40,906 nt of DNA, taken from positions 1-40,906 of the IMG/VR virus record IMGVR_UViG_3300037635_005395. One strand, 5' to 3'. This stretch comes from a virus. The translations under genes were made by a program, and so were the position numbers. The notes beneath the pieces are model-generated. The model made no database searches. It was given only the letters and a program-made list of their open reading frames with translations, and was not told the origin of the DNA. Shown piece by piece: positions 1,411 through 39,815 of the stretch (position 1 is the first letter of the stretch; each line of letters starts with the position of its first letter).

Positions 1411-2931
1411 ATGGCAGTCAAGAAAGGTAACGACTACCTCGAAAGAGCGTCCTTAGGTCAAGGCCTCGTAAAAGAGATCAAACACAAGAAAGCTGAGAAA
1501 GGACCGGGAAAAAATGTCGTCTTGTGGAAATTTATTCGCAAAGTATTTCCTCAGTATAAATTTTACAAATTTCATGCTAAAGTCATCGAACAACTGCAGA
1601 GAGTCATTGACGGAGAATGCAATCGACTTATACTTCAGGTCCCGCCGAGACATGGAAAGAGCCTCCTTGCATCGCAATTACTTCCTGCTGCTTATCTTCT
1701 TGCTCATCCCGACCGTCATGTGGGTATCAGCTCTTACTCCGCAGAGCTTGCCGAAGGGTTCTCCCGTAAGGCAAGGGGCTATTTCAAGGAAGGCGGTGGT
1801 CTGCTAAGCGAGGAAAGCAAAGCTGTCAATGCTTGGGGAACAGAAGGAGGAGGCGGTTTGTGGGCGGCAGGTGTTGGCGGTGCCGTAACTGGCCGATCTG
1901 GACATCTTCTCATCGTTGACGATCCTGTAAAAAACAGAGAAGATGCTGAGTCTTCTAGGATAATGGAAAAACTTAATGACTGGTACACTTCAACGCTCTA
2001 CACAAGACTGGAGCCTCACGTTGGCGCGATCGTCATTATTCAGACGAGATGGTCCGAGAATGACATGATTGGCCAATTATTGGACAATGAAAAGAATGTT
2101 TCCGAGAAAGGCCGAGAAGGATGGACGATCGTTGATCTTCCAGCATTATATGAAGACAAAGATGATCGACCAAAGCTGCCTGAACACTGTCCTGTCATAG
2201 AAGATTGGCGATCGGAGATAGGAGAAGCCTTGTGTCCCCAGCGATATGATACAGACGCATTAGAGAGAATCAGAGAAGCTATTGGATCAAGAGATTTCGC
2301 TTCTCTGTATCAGCAAAGGCCAGCCCCAGAAGGCGGAAACCTGTTCGCTCCTGAATGGTGGCAATATTACAGCTGGGATAGTAATCTGCCCGATTTTCAA
2401 AGAGTGATGCTTTCAGTTGACTGTACTTTTACGAACGCTAAAAACAGTGACTATGTCGTAGGCACAGTCGTTGGGCAAGCTGGAAATTCTTTTTATGTTC
2501 TGGACTTAGTAAGGGAGAAGCTTGACGTAGTGGGAACGATGGCAATGATTGCCAGGATGTACAAAAGGCATGCTCTGTCTGGTTGTGTTATTGAGCTCGC
2601 TGCGTCGGGTTATGCTGTTTATCAAATGATGCAAAAACGAATACCAGGCCTGATTGGCTTTAAGCCTGAGAAAAGCAAAGAGGCAAGGGCTTCTGGAATC
2701 GTGCCTTTAGTGGAAGCAGGTAATGTTTATTTACCTGTCAGCGCAACTTGGCTGGATGCTTTTTTAAATGAGTTTGCTTTGTTTCCAGCATCTAAGAACG
2801 ACGACATGGTCGATAGCTTGACGATGGCTTTGAATTATTGTGCTCAGCGATCAGCCCCTCAGGCAACTTCGGTGACCTGGGGTAGAGGAGATCGCGTATT
2901 ACCAAACGCTTCAAAATATAACGCATGGTAA
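1411..2931 (+). CDS. terL: Terminase large subunit (DNA packaging ATPase/nuclease)
   Basis: 506 residues. The Walker A-like motif VPPRHGKS (residues ~77-84), Walker B LLIVDDP (~166-172) and coupling motif QTRWSEND (~211-218) form the packaging ATPase. The C-terminal RNase H-like nuclease has SVDCTF (D337), an acidic residue near 395 (VIELAASG) and NDDMVDSL (~463-470). It cuts concatemers and pumps DNA through the portal into the prohead. Length and motif order are normal. Its gene follows terS directly. Confidence 0.97.
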   Translation: MAVKKGNDYLERASLGQGLVKEIKHKKAEKGPGKNVVLWKFIRKVFPQYKFYKFHAKVIEQLQRVIDGECNRLILQVPPRHGKSLLASQLLPAAYLLAHPDRHVGISSYSAELAEGFSRKARGYFKEGGGLLSEESKAVNAWGTEGGGGLWAAGVGGAVTGRSGHLLIVDDPVKNREDAESSRIMEKLNDWYTSTLYTRLEPHVGAIVIIQTRWSENDMIGQLLDNEKNVSEKGREGWTIVDLPALYEDKDDRPKLPEHCPVIEDWRSEIGEALCPQRYDTDALERIREAIGSRDFASLYQQRPAPEGGNLFAPEWWQYYSWDSNLPDFQRVMLSVDCTFTNAKNSDYVVGTVVGQAGNSFYVLDLVREKLDVVGTMAMIARMYKRHALSGCVIELAASGYAVYQMMQKRIPGLIGFKPEKSKEARASGIVPLVEAGNVYLPVSATWLDAFLNEFALFPASKNDDMVDSLTMALNYCAQRSAPQATSVTWGRGDRVLPNASKYNAW

Positions 2932-2936
2932 ACTGA
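2927..2936 (+). promoter_or_regulatory. GGTAAACTGA: putative phage promoter before the sigma gene
   Basis: A weaker match to the recurring motif GGWATMCTAG. It overlaps the terL stop codon, and the last T of TAAACT is 20 nt before the sigma-factor ATG. Confidence 0.35.
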
Positions 2937-2953: not shown

Positions 2954-3685
2954 ATGGCACGTCGCCCTGCTAAGTTTACAATGAATAACGAGCAGCGTAA
3001 GCTTGCTGCAGACAATCTAAACCTAGCAAGGAGAGAAGCTTGGAGACTTCAAAGAACTACTGAGATCGATTATCACACCTTGGAATCAGTAGCATTCGAG
3101 GGGTTATGCAAAGCGGCTTATCGTTATGACGCCTCAAGGCCTCATCCTATTACGGGAAAGAGCATGAAGTTCTCCAGTCTGGCGACACCAACAATTCGCG
3201 GGGAGTTACTTCATTGGATAAGAGATAGGACTTACGCACTTAGACTGTCGCATAAAATGAGAGAGCGATGGGTCAAGGGGCGAAAGCTCCTTTACAGAGG
3301 AGCAAGTGATATCGAGGTGGCTGAAGAGCTTGGGATCGATCGTCAGGAGTGGCAAGAAATCCGCAAGGTTTGTTCTGGTCCTCCCCTTGAGCTAAAGGAG
3401 CAGGCGAAGCCCTCAGAGCCTTTGACGGCTAGTGAAATCGATTTCGGTGCCATGTATCTAGAGTTAGCGTCGTCAGCCATGGAAGAGCTAGAGGATCAAT
3501 CTGAGGTCCTTGATCGATTGGAGATATATCTAAGCGGAACAGGATCTCGTCTCCCTACAGAAGCTATCGACAGGTTGCTTTCCATCGCAGGCTGCAGAGA
3601 GACTGATTGGTCCGAAGCAGGGATCGAACTGATTGATGGCTGTCAGAAACTGGCCAACAACCGCTATCAGCCAAATCTTTTCTGA
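2954..3685 (+). CDS. Sigma-70-family RNA polymerase sigma factor, apparently without region 4
   Basis: 243 residues. The N-terminal half looks like sigma region 2: paired helices around LARREAW, an acidic ESVAFEGLCKAAYRYD stretch (~45-60), and FSSLATPTIRGELLHWIRD followed by a basic helix (~75-105), the -10-recognition part. GASDIEVAEELGID (~116-129) resembles region 3. The C-terminal ~100 residues show no region 4 helix-turn-helix, the part that binds a -35 box. It should bind host core polymerase and redirect it to phage promoters. It lies between terminase and primase genes. Sigma family fairly certain; absence of region 4 judged by eye. Confidence 0.82.
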   Translation: MARRPAKFTMNNEQRKLAADNLNLARREAWRLQRTTEIDYHTLESVAFEGLCKAAYRYDASRPHPITGKSMKFSSLATPTIRGELLHWIRDRTYALRLSHKMRERWVKGRKLLYRGASDIEVAEELGIDRQEWQEIRKVCSGPPLELKEQAKPSEPLTASEIDFGAMYLELASSAMEELEDQSEVLDRLEIYLSGTGSRLPTEAIDRLLSIAGCRETDWSEAGIELIDGCQKLANNRYQPNLF

Positions 3686-9729: not shown

Positions 9730-9744
9730 AGTGTATGATCTCCT

Positions 9745-9754
9745 GGTAGACTAC
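9745..9754 (+). promoter_or_regulatory. GGTAGACTAC: putative phage promoter before RNR
   Basis: TAGACT with the upstream GG and downstream A of the recurring motif. The last T of the box is 26 nt before the reductase ATG. It stands right after a terminator, where a new promoter is needed. Confidence 0.5.
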
Positions 9755-12871: not shown

Positions 12872-14359
12872 ATGTCTCACGGAATCCAACATCCCATCAA
12901 TGATCCATCACTGGTCAGTTATCATCGTCCAGAACTTGTCAAGCTGCTTCCTCAACTAGAACAGGCCCATGACTGCTGGACACTTCTCAATGCGGATGGA
13001 CTCGGAAAATCAAAAGAAAAATACTTGCAACGAGAGCCAGCAGAACCCAATGCCGCTTATTTGGCTCGCTTGGATCGATCTACCTACACTCCGATCTATC
13101 GTGATTCTATCCGTTCTTATGCTGGTTTGCTGAGTCGCTTCCAAATCATCGACGCTCCCCCTAGTATGGAGGCGAATGACGACAACGTTGACCTGCAAGG
13201 CTCCAGCATGCAGAGCTTTCTCACTATGGTTGACGAGGCCGTACTTCGTGACGGAGGCAGCTTTGTCATGGTGGACATTATGCCAGAAGGCGAGGCTGAA
13301 AACTTCTTTGATCAGATGAGCGATGGCCGTCATCCTTATCTCGTAAGCATTAAACGTGCTGATGTAATTAATTGGAGTATTAGTTATGAGCGAGGATCCG
13401 AATCGGTAAATCATGCAACCATTCGACAATTGAGATCCATCCCAGACCCCGAGGGTCGCTTTGGCTCAAGGATCGAACCTGTTTACTATGTCCTGACGCC
13501 TGGAAAAGTAGAGACTTACAAGCTTGTCAAGACTGACGTCAATCGCTGGGCCAATCAAAAGATAGACGAAGTGTCTACGAGTCTGCCTATTGTCCCTGTC
13601 GTTTGGTACGGAGCCACAACTAATAGATTTGCTCAAGGGGATCTGCCCATGGATGGCTTAGCTGATCTCAGCATTCAACACTTTCAGATGCGCTCCGATC
13701 TGGCCGAGTTGCTTCATAAGTGCGCTATGCCTGTTCCTGTAAGGAAAGGTGCTCCTATAGGCCCTGACGGCAGGCCTGCGCCACTGGTTCTTGGGCCGAA
13801 CACTGCCGTTGACTTGAACACCGAAGGTGGTGACTTTAGCTTCGCCGAACCTACAGGCAAATCGCTTGAGCGTCACCAGTCAGAGATTAGACATGTAGAA
13901 GAGCTTATGGATCGCAGTTCCTTGAACTTTCTCTATGGGGCTAATGTCAAGACAGCCACTGAAGCGTCCCTGAGGGCCTCTCAGGTCACTTCTAGCGTTG
14001 CTGCTCTGGTACGGAACAAAAGTGCCATCTTCGGCGTCATCATGAGGCTCTGGGCGTGGTATGCGGGGGAACGTTCAGCCATTACGAACGAGTCAGGACT
14101 TGCTATTAACGACTCTCTGATTAGCAAGCCCCTGGAAGCCTCTGAAATGGCACAACTTGTAAATCTTTATTCGAATCAATTGCTTTGCAGAAAGACAGTT
14201 CTTGACGAATTGCAGCGTGGTGGAGTCCTTGATCCCGACCTAGTTATTGACGAAGAGATTCAGCGTATCGAAAATGATCAGGAAGACGTGGCCAATCGTG
14301 TGGTTAAAACCGAACCACAGGAGCCTGAACCTCTTTCTCCAGATGGTATACTGGCATAG
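12872..14359 (+). CDS. Portal protein (DUF4055-like)
   Basis: 495 residues. The pattern SIRSYAGLLSRF, then VDEAVLRDGGSFVMVDI, a middle domain, and a helical stretch FLYGANVKTATEASLRASQV with VIMRLWAWYAGE near residue 390-400 is that of the portal family including DUF4055. The dodecameric ring sits at a head vertex, is docked by terminase and later holds the tail. It is separated from the other head genes by some 8.7 kb of small ORFs and regulatory DNA, an unusual break. Confidence 0.8.
   Translation: MSHGIQHPINDPSLVSYHRPELVKLLPQLEQAHDCWTLLNADGLGKSKEKYLQREPAEPNAAYLARLDRSTYTPIYRDSIRSYAGLLSRFQIIDAPPSMEANDDNVDLQGSSMQSFLTMVDEAVLRDGGSFVMVDIMPEGEAENFFDQMSDGRHPYLVSIKRADVINWSISYERGSESVNHATIRQLRSIPDPEGRFGSRIEPVYYVLTPGKVETYKLVKTDVNRWANQKIDEVSTSLPIVPVVWYGATTNRFAQGDLPMDGLADLSIQHFQMRSDLAELLHKCAMPVPVRKGAPIGPDGRPAPLVLGPNTAVDLNTEGGDFSFAEPTGKSLERHQSEIRHVEELMDRSSLNFLYGANVKTATEASLRASQVTSSVAALVRNKSAIFGVIMRLWAWYAGERSAITNESGLAINDSLISKPLEASEMAQLVNLYSNQLLCRKTVLDELQRGGVLDPDLVIDEEIQRIENDQEDVANRVVKTEPQEPEPLSPDGILA
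14345..14355 (+). promoter_or_regulatory. GGTATACTGGC: phage promoter motif
   Basis: A strong copy of the recurring motif overlapping the end of the portal gene. The last T of TATACT is 26 nt before the ATG at 14378. Confidence 0.6.
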
Positions 14360-15765: not shown

Positions 15766-15771
15766 TAATCA

Positions 15772-15780
15772 GGTATCCTG
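15772..15780 (+). promoter_or_regulatory. GGTATCCTG: putative phage promoter
   Basis: A good copy of the motif just after the stop of the upstream gene. The next convincing ATG (15869) is 90 nt away, so it would imply a long leader. Confidence 0.4.
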
Positions 15781-15868
15781 AAGGTAAGCGTTGAGCTGTA
15801 GTGCATACTATTGCTGCAGACCGATCTGGAGGGAGCAACGGACCTTTAGACACTGTGGAGTAATCCCG

Positions 15869-20275: not shown

Positions 20276-20297
20276 CTTTGCCATCAGCGGTGAATCA

Positions 20298-20390
20298 TCT
20301 TCAATTTGAAGACCTTATAGTAAAAAAATCATCTTCAATTTGAAGACCAAACATCTTCATGGTGAAGAACATCGATCTTCAATTTGAAGA
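20298..20390. repeat. Four palindromic iterons, TCTTCAATTTGAAGA
   Basis: Three identical 15-bp palindromes at 20298-20312, 20332-20346 and 20376-20390 and one variant, TCTTCATGGTGAAGA, at 20354-20368. The last three are spaced 22 bp apart, about two helical turns, so bound dimers would sit on one face. AT-rich DNA follows (20391-20435). Reads as a replication origin or an operator array. Confidence 0.75.
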
Positions 20391-20790
20391 ACTATACTTA
20401 TATATAAAGATTCTAATACAACTACAAATATATGGGTAGTAGAATTTGAGGCTAAATCCGTAAGAATTGACCACTGAAAGCTTTGGATTGCTCTGATGGC
20501 CATAAAGCTTATATCGCACGTCAGAGGCGTCTGTAAGGCTCTGTGTCATGCTCGATGGCCTTGTGTGGTGGAATGTATCATACATATAAGTATAGACGTG
20601 TTGTGGGCGATTTTTAAGGGGTGTGTTTTTGTAGTGTTGTGGGCGGGGGGACGGGCTTCGCCCTTCCGATTTGTCAATTCCTTGTAACAATTCTTCACGC
20701 CACAAGTCTTAACATTACGAATTGTTGCGGCCCCAGGCCTGGTGGCTGGCTTCACAAAAAGTTGCAAAAAGTGTAAAAAATTCACATATG
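20391..20790. other. Gene-free stretch
   Basis: No convincing gene on either strand; the overlapping frames here have unnatural composition. It holds AT-rich DNA at the left, a GGGC-TTC-GCCC hairpin at 20654-20664, G-rich segments around 20600-20660, and a possible -10 box TATGAT at 20787-20792. Confidence 0.5.
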
Positions 20791-20808: not shown

Positions 20809-20854
20809 TTGTACTAGGTATAAATACCTAGAACAAATGTACTACTCTCAGAAG

Positions 20855-20869
20855 TGAGAATGATTCTCA
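20855..20869. promoter_or_regulatory. Fur-box-like palindrome TGAGAATGATTCTCA
   Basis: A perfect 15-bp 7-1-7 palindrome matching the Fur site core TGATAATNATTATCA at all but the symmetric fourth positions. AA and TT flank it. Its left arm also pairs with TCTCA at 20846-20850, so two structures compete if transcribed. Fur is the iron-sensing repressor of cyanobacterial hosts. Confidence 0.45.
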
Positions 20870-20875
20870 TTTCGA

Positions 20876-20891
20876 TAGTACACCTGTACTA
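20876..20891. promoter_or_regulatory. TAGTACACCTGTACTA palindrome
   Basis: 6-4-6 perfect inverted repeat, seven bases after the Fur-like site. TGTACTA also ends the three ~30-bp repeats of the array, so this may be a further regulator half-site pair. Confidence 0.5.
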
Positions 20892-21039
20892 CTTTAGGTA
20901 TAAATACCTAGGCAAATATACCTAGGTAAAAATACCTATGCCAATTCTGAACTGTCATAGGTATAAATACCTAGAACAAATGTACTAGGCAAAAATACCT
21001 AGGTATAAATACCTAGAACAAATGTACTAGTCAAATAGC

Positions 21040-22810: not shown

Positions 22811-23004
22811 TGGATTGATTCCTTTTGGACTCCCTAATCCTACAAAGGAGGGCTGGCCTCTTGCGACTCAGCATGGTCGATTGTTATATAACTTAACATT
22901 GAGTAGGATTGCCTAGGTATAAATACCTACCCACCCCCACCCCGATTTCTGCGAAAGCCCCGGCAGGCACACCCCTCAGAAAATCTGTAGAAAATTCCAA
23001 AACA
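22811..23004. promoter_or_regulatory. Divergent control region with one CTAGGTAT palindrome
   Basis: Lies between the leftward cluster and the rightward structural genes. It holds a near-perfect array palindrome at 22913-22930, GTTATATAAC at 22882-22891 as a possible leftward -10 region, and a C-rich stretch (22930-22980). The palindrome is well placed to control either direction. Confidence 0.5.
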
Positions 23005-23015
23005 GGTATACTAGC
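23005..23015 (+). promoter_or_regulatory. GGTATACTAGC: phage promoter motif
   Basis: An exact match to the consensus of the recurring motif. The last T of TATACT is 19 nt before GTG 23031 and 28 nt before ATG 23040. No -35 box. Confidence 0.65.
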
Positions 23016-24366: not shown

Positions 24367-24375
24367 TATACCGCT

Positions 24376-24386
24376 GGAACCCTAGC
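24376..24386 (+). promoter_or_regulatory. GGAACCCTAGC: phage promoter motif
   Basis: Good copy of the motif, 25 nt before ATG 24408 (16 nt before GTG 24399). Confidence 0.55.
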
Positions 24387-24812: not shown

Positions 24813-24822
24813 ATGGCTCTCT

Positions 24823-24832
24823 GGTAACCTGT
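24823..24832 (+). promoter_or_regulatory. GGTAACCTGT: putative phage promoter
   Basis: Moderate motif copy; the last T of TAACCT is 23 nt before ATG 24853. Confidence 0.4.
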
Positions 24833-25040: not shown

Positions 25041-25050
25041 GTTATACTGG
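25041..25050 (+). promoter_or_regulatory. GTTATACTGG: phage promoter motif
   Basis: TATACT at 25043-25048, 31 nt before ATG 25079. GACTAGG follows at 25053. Confidence 0.5.
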
Positions 25051-25078
25051 AAGACTAGGTGGACTAAGTCAGAGACGC

Positions 25079-26100: not shown

Positions 26101-26107
26101 GTGAGTA

Positions 26108-26116
26108 GGTACAATA
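26108..26116 (+). promoter_or_regulatory. GGTACAATA: putative phage promoter
   Basis: TACAAT (26110-26115) with upstream GG, exactly 21 nt before ATG 26136, and CATCAGAC downstream as at other copies. Confidence 0.5.
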
Positions 26117-26135
26117 CATCAGACTTAAAAGAAAG

Positions 26136-28999: not shown

Positions 29000-29003
29000 A
29001 TTG

Positions 29004-29014
29004 GGAAGACTAGG
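29004..29014 (+). promoter_or_regulatory. GGAAGACTAGG: phage promoter motif
   Basis: Copy of the motif directly after the terminator, with CCAGC downstream. The last T of the box is 21 nt before GTG 29032. Confidence 0.5.
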
Positions 29015-31865: not shown

Positions 31866-32222
31866 ATGTTTGACTTTGGCAAGCCAGAAGACACTGCTAC
31901 TCTATTTCGTGAAAGTGCTCTCAGGATGAAAGGCCCTGCCTTGCCGGACTGTTCCTTGAATGAAATGGAAGAGCAAGACTTGCGAAATACATTGACTTAT
32001 CTGTATTCAGCCGTCAGGAACGCCCTTGAAGAGGGTATTGAAGAGGAAGCCCTTGAAATACTCGTAGCAGAGTACGACGAGGTCTTCGTGGCTCTAGCAG
32101 AGGCCTCTGACAGGTTTAGGAGCATGGTAAAGAATGGCAAGCATCAGGTTGTCTTGGGCGTGACAAGAGAAAACGTTGACAAATATAGGAAGCTAGCTGG
32201 CGTCTGGAGTTCGGAATCCTAG
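31866..32222 (+). CDS. Small acidic tail protein, unknown
   Basis: 118 residues from ATG 31866. An in-frame TTG at 31845 overlaps the promoter motif. Acidic and helical (MEEQDLRNTLTYLYSAVRNA; EALEILVAEYDEVFVALAEA). It lies between tape measure and tail-tip genes. No family recognised. Confidence 0.65.
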   Translation: MFDFGKPEDTATLFRESALRMKGPALPDCSLNEMEEQDLRNTLTYLYSAVRNALEEGIEEEALEILVAEYDEVFVALAEASDRFRSMVKNGKHQVVLGVTRENVDKYRKLAGVWSSES

Positions 32223-34915: not shown

Positions 34916-34917
34916 TA

Positions 34918-34926
34918 GGAATCCTA
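34918..34926 (+). promoter_or_regulatory. GGAATCCTA: phage promoter motif
   Basis: Strong copy right after the hub gene's stop. The last T of AATCCT is 23 nt before ATG 34948. Confidence 0.6.
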
Positions 34927-34947
34927 CATCGATTCTACTGATGTGCC

Positions 34948-36166: not shown

Positions 36167-36507
36167 TGGCCATAAACAACCCTATAATTGCAGCTAATTC
36201 TACGGTCTCAAGGGCCGAGGTAAAAACAGTTATTGGCTTACTATCGCCTGTTGCGCCTCCCGAACCTTTTACCACTGTCGTAGATGGGACTATCACGACA
36301 GTAACATTTGAAGGTGCGGTAGAAGGACAAATGGTTTTTGTGTTATCAGGTGATCAGCTTTACACAACTCCCTATGTATTCGTCAATACAACTAGTGGGA
36401 CTGGCGTTGATACTCTTGAATGGAAGAGAGTGTTTACATCAGGAGTAATTGAAGACCCAAGGACAGGACAGCCTAAAGATTCCCTGTCTGGTTTCTATAC
36501 AAACTAG
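36166..36507 (+). CDS. Small tail-region protein, unknown
   Basis: 113 residues (MAINNPIIAANSTVSRAEVK and on), beta-rich with GTITTVTFEGAVEGQMVFVL. Start coupled to the upstream gene. The same MAIN start and Ser/Ile pattern suggest a duplicated small fibre-associated protein. Confidence 0.6.
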   Translation: MAINNPIIAANSTVSRAEVKTVIGLLSPVAPPEPFTTVVDGTITTVTFEGAVEGQMVFVLSGDQLYTTPYVFVNTTSGTGVDTLEWKRVFTSGVIEDPRTGQPKDSLSGFYTN

Positions 36508-36516
36508 GTATACTAT
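36507..36516 (+). promoter_or_regulatory. GGTATACTAT: phage promoter motif
   Basis: Strong copy, overlapping the stop of the previous gene and 21 nt before ATG 36535. CGCAG follows, as in other copies. Confidence 0.65.
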
Positions 36517-38268: not shown

Positions 38269-38299
38269 CGTAGTCAGGTAGCTAATGCCTGCATTTTTT

Positions 38300-38310
38300 G
38301 GAATCCTAGC
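38300..38310 (+). promoter_or_regulatory. GGAATCCTAGC: phage promoter motif
   Basis: Strong copy, 21 nt before GTG 38328. Preceded by a short T-run (38294-38299). Confidence 0.6.
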
Positions 38311-38609: not shown

Positions 38610-38614
38610 TCTTC

Positions 38615-38624
38615 GGCATTCTAG
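38615..38624 (+). promoter_or_regulatory. GGCATTCTAG: phage promoter motif
   Basis: Good copy with TCCAGG downstream, 21 nt before ATG 38643. Confidence 0.55.
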
Positions 38625-38642: not shown

Positions 38643-39806
38643 ATGACAGTCCCTTCTTATCGCGTACCTGTACGAGTAGCTCGCGGTACGTTGTCTGCTC
38701 TGACGGCGGGATTAGCGAGTCTTGAAGAAGGTGAGCTGTGTTACGCGACAGACCTTGACGTATTATACATAATAGAAGGTGGAGCTCTTACCGCAACAGT
38801 AACTCAAGTTAATTTAGTAAGTGATACAAGTCCTCAGCTTGGTGGTTCTTTAGACACTAATAGTTTTGAAATTATAACTACCAGTGCAGGCAACGTTCAA
38901 ATAGCACCTGACACTACAGGTGTTCTTGAACTAAGAGGGAACACTGGTAATGATGCGGCCATTCAGTTAAACTGCGAAGCAAATACTCACGGCGTTAAGA
39001 TTAAAGCGCCTCCTCATAGTGCTGGCGCAACATACACTCTTGTTCTTCCTGGCGATACTGGGTCAAGTGGACAAGCCCTTACTACAGACGGCAGTGGAGG
39101 CTTGTCGTGGGCAACTCCAAGCACGGTTGGCTCTATTGGTGATCTGTCCGATGTAGACACTACTACAAATCCGCCTACAGACGGGCAAGTTCTGACCTGG
39201 GTTAATGCGGATTCAGAGTGGCAACCGATCAATTCGGCTGGAGGTGGAGGTTACACTGATCCACTAACGACTAATGGCGATGTCGTAATAAGGTCTGGAG
39301 GATCAACAATAAGGCTGGGCATCGGGAATGAGTCTCAAGTATTGACATGTTCTAGTGGGCTCCCTGTATGGGCTGACGCTACTGGTGGCGGTGGCGGTGG
39401 ATCTACAACTACTCGACTAACAGAGACTCAAACGGCTTCTTCTGGTGTAGCTACTTTTGTCGGGCTCGGACACTCTGGGACTATCTTAAAAGTTACATCA
39501 TCTTTAGACGCTTGGATTGTTCTTTACGGTTCTGCTGCAGAAAGAACATCAGACTCCAGTAGATCTTATTCTGCTGATCCTTCTACAGGTTCTGGTGTTT
39601 TGGCGGAATTTTATATTACTGCTGGGAGCACTTTAGTAGCGACTCCAAGTACTTCCTATTTTAATAATGACACTTCCGTTACTGAGGCTATTTACGCAGC
39701 GGTCAGGAGTCAGGCTGGGAATGATGTAAATTCAGCTATAGGCATTACAACCTATGGGAATCAAGCAATCACTTCTGTTTCTGGGGGGACCTTTGGCAGC
39801 GGCTAG
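38643..39806 (+). CDS. Tail fibre protein
   Basis: 387 residues. The N-terminus has SLEEGELCYATDLDVLYIIE, the anchor-like motif common to cyanophage fibres. Then come Gly/Thr/Asp-rich strands and two linker motifs, GSIGDLSDVDTTTNPPTDGQ and a poly-Gly segment, typical of fibre shafts. The C-terminal beta domain may contact the host. Receptor unknown. Confidence 0.8.
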   Translation: MTVPSYRVPVRVARGTLSALTAGLASLEEGELCYATDLDVLYIIEGGALTATVTQVNLVSDTSPQLGGSLDTNSFEIITTSAGNVQIAPDTTGVLELRGNTGNDAAIQLNCEANTHGVKIKAPPHSAGATYTLVLPGDTGSSGQALTTDGSGGLSWATPSTVGSIGDLSDVDTTTNPPTDGQVLTWVNADSEWQPINSAGGGGYTDPLTTNGDVVIRSGGSTIRLGIGNESQVLTCSSGLPVWADATGGGGGGSTTTRLTETQTASSGVATFVGLGHSGTILKVTSSLDAWIVLYGSAAERTSDSSRSYSADPSTGSGVLAEFYITAGSTLVATPSTSYFNNDTSVTEAIYAAVRSQAGNDVNSAIGITTYGNQAITSVSGGTFGSG

Positions 39807-39815
39807 GAATACTAG
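39806..39815 (+). promoter_or_regulatory. GGAATACTAG: phage promoter motif
   Basis: Strong copy overlapping the stop of the previous gene, with CCCAGA downstream. The last T of AATACT is 22 nt before ATG 39835. Confidence 0.65.

Follow-up and report, generated by a model that had tools for sequence, protein, structure and literature searches.

A phage sigma factor in which no -35-reading helix can be recognized raises the question of which promoters it might serve. Such a protein is encoded near one end of the DNA stretch analyzed here (the window, 40.9 kb), a fragment of an S-CBS2-like cyanosiphovirus, that is, of a marine cyanobacterial virus. The original prediction, made from the letters alone, proposed that this sigma factor shows regions 2 and 3 with no visible region 4, and that it would direct the host polymerase to repeated phage promoters consisting of a -10 element only. 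The first 8 kb of the window, which hold genes for terminase, sigma, primase and phosphoesterase, are matched over 37–61% by S-CBS2 and S-CRES1-3, at 68–70% identity (blastn). Upstream of terS, positions 1–625 carry the 3' end of psbA followed by a high-light-inducible gene, in a siphovirus; psbA annotation is absent from S-CBS2, S-CRES1 and S-CRES3. Gene starts in the window and in the metagenomic loci were taken from simple ORF calling. The gene in question is the following:

2954–3685, plus strand: sigma-1 gene, phage group-3 sigma factor (ATG start, ORF of 243 aa)

The identity of the gene was confirmed, as the protein (sigma-1 from here on) matches PHROG 36098, "RNA polymerase sigma factor", with E = 1.9e-94, and its regions 2–3 match those of FliA, SigB and SigA. 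Its orthologues are the "SigF" genes of S-CBS2 and the S-CRES phages (69–71%), while residues 2–163 are orthologous to the "type III" (group 3) sigma of P-SS2, ORF003 (47%), and all of these share a position after terL. Sigma-1 is, hence, a member of an already known kind of phage group-3 sigma. Scans of viral contigs yielded 79 relatives, and a scan of bacterial genomes gave a single one (L090, a metagenome-assembled genome, 60%), ending in QSSLF. The domains of sigma-1 were delimited as follows:

2987–3232, plus strand: sigma region 2 (residues 12–93), -10 recognition and core binding (Pfam Sigma70_r2 over residues 19–92; AF2 helices 12–93)
3245–3373, plus strand: sigma region 3 domain (residues 98–140; FliA/SigA regions 2–3 profile match to about residue 145; helices 100–140)
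3443–3586, plus strand: probable region 4.1 remnant (residues 164–211), lacking the 4.2 recognition helix (hhalign of related C-termini; AF2 helices 164–178, 182–193 and 202–211)

The Sigma70_r2 match of the window's own sigma-1 is weak (Pfam, E = 0.003), and the same model is matched by all 63 aligned family members, the best with E = 6.8e-12. When compared with solved sigma factors (FliA, SigB and SigA), the family profile matched regions 2–3 only, with region 3 covered both by the match to FliA (7–145) and by the AF2 helices at 100–140. None of the 63 members gave a convincing match to region 4, the only hit to Sigma70_r4_2 (1/63) having E = 0.16, and no region 4.2 helix-turn-helix was found by profile or in the AF2 model. 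This model, of moderate confidence (mean pLDDT 76, pTM 0.40), places region 2 at residues 12–93 and region 3 at 100–140, followed by three short helices within 164–211 and a disordered tail at 222–243. A PDB fold search matched sigma factors broadly, at low TM-scores, and left the C-terminus unplaced.

The C-termini of the sister clades (s1, s2 and all together) aligned with region 4.1 in a single register, with hhalign scores of 17.5–21.9, whereas 20 column shuffles scored 12.2 at most; one hhalign shuffle that reached 128 on 3 aligned columns is an artefact. The clade-A C-terminal alignment by itself did not reach region 4.1 in hhalign, the signal being carried by the sister clades, whose proteins stop soon past the region 4.1 stretch and are too short to hold a recognition helix. 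Because profile, model, hhalign and the short sister C-termini concur, the -35-reading helix-turn-helix is missing from sigma-1 and a flap-docking remnant of region 4.1 is probably kept. The HMM and structure predictions that had been suggested for the C-terminus thus uphold the absence of a helix-turn-helix, while the broader statement that there is no region 4 has to be qualified in view of the three short helices and the probable 4.1 remnant.

The second element of the proposal was the promoter motif. An unsupervised search over 394 upstream regions drawn from the window, S-CBS2, S-CRES3 and S-CRES1 recovered TnGGnATACTAG de novo, with a log-likelihood (LL) of 306 versus 35–44 in shuffles, and the motif was recovered separately in S-CBS2, S-CRES3 and S-CRES1; on the window alone its discovery was marginal (LL 51 versus 42), so that the relatives were required. 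The motif displays A-11, C-8, T-7 and GG at -14/-13, lies ~33 nt before start codons (69/138 sites begin 30–34 nt before) and is followed by a purine at +1 in 76% of the sites. In agreement with what had been claimed, no -35 accompanies it: the 45 nt upstream show no clear conserved column (all at or below ~0.1 bit). A TTGACA box at variable spacing was considered and rejected, given that at a spacing of 15–19 nt at least 4/6 matching positions occur in 19.6% of the cases versus 17.3% in shuffled sequences, that is, at shuffle level. A weak T-rich signal in the -35 zone probably corresponds to the T-runs of terminators, and terminator-like hairpins lie 5' of 13% of the motif sites versus 5% of control positions.

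Each sigma clade has its own form of the motif (TnGGnATACTAG, GGAAggCTa, G[GA]TAgAcT and GnTATAaTG), all ~32 nt before the starts. The form GGAAggCTa is that of P-SS2, in which 90% of the sites have a purine at +1 and the early and lysogeny genes retain TTGACA promoters. The pairing of a sigma that has no -35 reader with promoters that have no -35 extends in this way to S-CBS2, S-CRES1, S-CRES3, P-SS2 and related metagenomic phages. Among spaced genes (those with an upstream gap of 15 nt or more), the motif precedes ~80% of the virion genes (24/29, 22/28 and 26/32); the figures are 0/9, 2/13 and 0/7 for the portal-hypothetical blocks and about half for the replication blocks. Judged by the motif, the -35 test and the virion-gene counts, the sigma-1 phages show the trait of -10-only late promoters. 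A matrix trained without the window identified 25 plus-strand sites in it, 14 of which lie 24–41 nt before a start (0.65 expected, p = 2e-16). The copies of the putative late promoter in the window are these:

2925–2936, plus strand: copy at sigma-1's own start, ATGGTAAACTGA, 29 nt before the ATG
9743–9754, plus strand: before 9778, a ribonucleotide reductase-like ORF (synteny with S-CBS2)
14343–14354, plus strand: before 14378
15770–15781, plus strand: before 15791, start codon uncertain
23003–23014, plus strand: CAGGTATACTAG, before 23031
24374–24385, plus strand: before 24399
24821–24832, plus strand: before 24853
25047–25058, plus strand: before 25079
26106–26117, plus strand: weaker copy, before 26136
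29002–29013, plus strand: before the tape-measure-like ORF 29032, directly 3' of a terminator-like hairpin
32211–32222, plus strand: before 32242
34916–34927, plus strand: before 34948
36505–36516, plus strand: before 36535
38298–38309, plus strand: TTGGAATCCTAG, before 38328
38613–38624, plus strand: before 38643
39804–39815, plus strand: best copy, TAGGAATACTAG, before 39835

The original prediction also pointed to a weak copy at the start of the sigma gene itself. This copy is present and conserved in relatives, although its score is moderate rather than very weak (10.6 bits with the full matrix and 9.3 with the independent matrix; scores this high occur in 1.5% of 30-nt segments). Copies upstream of the own gene exceed the 95% null in 29/36 clade-A, 12/13 s2 and 5/11 s1 upstream regions, which makes positive feedback on the sigma-1 gene plausible.

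The assignment of the motif to sigma-1 had to take into account a fact that corrects the initial picture, namely that these genomes hold two phage sigma factors. The second one, sigma-2, lies outside the window, ~7 kb from sigma-1 in the relatives with enough flanking sequence, and it adjoins ssb in S-CBS2 and P-SS2. In locus L042 (11804–12589) and in relatives, it is a group-2-like sigma whose region 4 is complete although diverged; some members also have region 1.2. Viral contigs often encode related sigmas (at least 599 matches). That sigma-2, and not sigma-1, reads the motif, leaving another role for sigma-1, could be argued from its presence in relatives whose flanks are long enough. Both proteins occur in every sigma-1 phage for which the flanking DNA suffices, so that their co-occurrence does not separate them and the assignment to sigma-1 rests on controls that have sigma-2 only. 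S-CBS3, with a sigma-2 orthologue (E = 4e-39) and without a sigma-1 orthologue, has the motif at 1/38 ORFs (2.6%), versus 23–27% of ORFs in four clade-A sigma-1 carriers; likewise, across 80 loci with sigma-2 only, most of which belong to different phage groups and perhaps to different hosts, with few close relatives among them, 1.2% of the 1237 ORFs have the motif, versus 9.8% in clade-A loci. In sigma-2, region 4 is complete (hhalign probability 94.6, E = 7e-8), and P-SS2 ORF113 was assigned to canonical sigma-70 promoters by Sullivan 2009 (PMC2784084). With these data against it, sigma-2 as the reader appears improbable, and the proposal of a minimal sigma matched to the motif gains support.

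A similarly small probability is given to a reading in which the host SigA recognizes the motif as a usual extended -10 promoter and no phage sigma is required. A-11 and T-7 are indeed the core of any -10, and the variant of the s1 clade comes near TATAAT; nevertheless, C-8 and a frequent non-T at -12 fit a normal -10 poorly, and Synechococcus phages without sigma-1 (S-CBS3, S-CBS4 and S-SBP1) lack the motif. In the last two it precedes 0% of the ORFs, and neither sigma was found in the parts that were searched (for S-CBS4, 49 of its 69 kb). Marginally less probable still is that the motif is not a promoter but an element acting at the RNA level or as an operator (translation, processing or a repressor), as its tight spacing to the starts would allow: the -10 geometry, the purine at the expected +1, the placement of sites after terminator-like hairpins and the association with a sigma factor all speak for a promoter. 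We therefore retain sigma-1 as the reader, since the controls argue for a strong computational link between it and the motif, and it very probably steers the host RNA polymerase to a short promoter of the virus late genes.

The most prominent feature of sigma-1, which had been missed, is located at its very end:

3668–3682, plus strand: C-terminal QPNLF (residues 239–243), beta-clamp-binding signature QxxLF (orthologue conservation)

In an alignment of 30 orthologues, Q, L and F are invariant and the other C-terminal positions vary. Relatives end in QGSLF (the commonest in orthologues), QASLF, QPSLF and similar sequences, and the codons of the signature vary synonymously across 35 distinct tails. 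All complete clade-A tails carry QxxLF or QxxVF, with the sole exception of the S-CBS2 deposit; the signature is also found in L033, L059, L090 and in L089, whose tail is unalignable, and is absent from P-SS2 and the sister-clade sigmas. In the S-CBS2 deposit (L042:21430–21560, GU936714) the sigma, gp077, is cut by a frameshift and consequently has no clamp-like tail, while the shifted frame runs to GDGRLQGSLF. The bacterial clamp-binding pentapeptide is QL(S/D)LF, typically C-terminal (PMC9690074, PMC4549789), and these tails conform to Q-x-[S/D]-L-F, with the window's own QPNLF having N at the third place. As in the bacterial beta-clamp-binding proteins with QLxLF (PMC4549789, PMC9690074), the signature of sigma-1 is C-terminal and has a free hydrophobic end. 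No sigma factor outside the T4 family was found among clamp-binding proteins in the open-access literature retrieved, and the tail on sigma-1 is a new observation. A further possible clamp-binding tail, QEPLF, ends the RusA-like nuclease of S-CBS2 (L042:16103–16474). The genomes of S-CBS2, S-CRES1, S-CRES3 and P-SS2 gave no match to the clamp domain PF02768 (the sole clamp model used), nor to Pol III alpha, Pol A or Pol B; for this reason, these phages presumably rely on the replisome and clamp of the host for replication. From these features, the tail of sigma-1 probably binds the host beta sliding clamp.

A short C-terminal motif such as QxxLF can, however, arise by chance or serve another partner. 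Sigma-1 might read the -35-less late promoters by itself, while its tail binds a partner different from the clamp, such as core polymerase or a further phage protein, or does no more than stabilize sigma-1. In line with this, P-SS2 and the sister clades carry a related motif at the same place and do without the tail, which means that clamp binding cannot be a general need for motif reading. Even so, the tail is disordered in the model and yet its Q, L and F are invariant despite synonymous codon change, it fits the published clamp-binding consensus, and it is found again in L089, where the rest of the tail is different, so that we regard a non-clamp role as unlikely, if deserving some weight.

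The reading we favor, with a probability of about 0.72, is that sigma-1 is a late-gene sigma for an extended -10 devoid of a -35, with a tail probably placed on the host clamp and a T4-like coupling. Sigma-1 would dock to the host RNA polymerase via region 2, and its region 4.1 remnant would probably contact the polymerase flap. Regions 2 and 3 would then read the extended -10 GGnAnnCT(A/G), ~33 nt before the starts, making no -35 contact, and switch the polymerase to the virion genes and to the sigma-1 gene itself. In the window's lineage, the lost -35 grip would probably have been replaced by the disordered QxxLF tail on the host beta clamp, and a clamp-bound tail would tether the polymerase to replicating phage DNA, thus coupling late transcription to replication.

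This arrangement recalls phage T4, in which gp55, devoid of region 4, serves promoters made up of a -10 alone and has a clamp motif at its C-terminus, attached by a flexible linker, and gp33 is a sigma-4-like flap binder (PMC2988020, PMC7892883). Like the gp55/gp33/gp45 system, sigma-1 combines a region-2 domain, the lack of a -35 reader and -10-only late promoters, and, by sequence, a putative clamp-binding motif on a flexible tail as in gp55; its 4.1 remnant could play the coactivator part of gp33, binding the flap as a sigma-4-like element with no reading of the -35. In contrast to gp55, sigma-1 is a group-3 sigma with region 3 and the region 4.1 remnant in one chain, and its -10 is GGnAnnCT instead of the TATAAATA-like late promoters of T4. 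A PDB profile search with the sigma-1 family gave FliA, SigB and SigA, and no gp55 chain at E ≤ 0.01. The tail motif is of the host beta-clamp type, and a phage clamp as in T4 was not found in the four genomes (no PF02768 match). Sigma-1 looks like a one-chain counterpart of the gp55 system that evolved independently. More tentative, at somewhat less than even odds, is that this constitutes a second, independently evolved case of replication-coupled late transcription, in which a group-3 sigma lost its -35 helix and gained a host-clamp tail, as a natural gp55–gp33 fusion working with the bacterial replisome and not with a phage clamp.

GG-type -10 elements are known for SigB and SigF. These and other bacterial group 3 sigmas (FliA, WhiG), whose profiles are matched over regions 2–3, differ from sigma-1 in that they keep region 4 and need a -35, whereas sigma-1 has no 4.2 helix-turn-helix. 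P-SS2 ORF003 differs in its lack of the QxxLF tail; the P-SS2 paper proposes for it only the reading of "a particular regulon", and a search of its main text turned up neither a motif nor the loss of region 4 nor a clamp tail (PMC2784084). If the favored reading is true, marine cyanophages would couple late transcription to replication via the host clamp, a trick resembling the link between late expression and replication in T4, as if reached independently. The putative late promoter of the P-SS2/S-CBS2 cyanosiphoviruses can now be named and assigned to one of their two sigmas, and the clade-specific variants offer material on how a sigma with no -35 reader may read DNA.

Some other repeated elements were noted. 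The palindrome TAGGTATAAATACCTA was initially weighed as a promoter motif because TATAAATA lies inside it, and was rejected, as it clusters in one non-coding stretch and not before genes. Palindromic 16-mers of this kind and their variants occupy positions 20813–21015 and 22912–22929, non-coding and between the early and virion modules, with no exact match in the other fetched loci, and they are candidate operators or a candidate replication origin. Beside the cluster, at positions 20293–20392, a 22-nt unit occurs four times in nearly identical form, with ATCTTCAATTTGAAGA as its palindromic core. Finally, TTGACA-N(2-4)-CGCC is common to the early P-SS2 promoters (L047–L049), which thus have an extra conserved CGCC just 3' of the -35.
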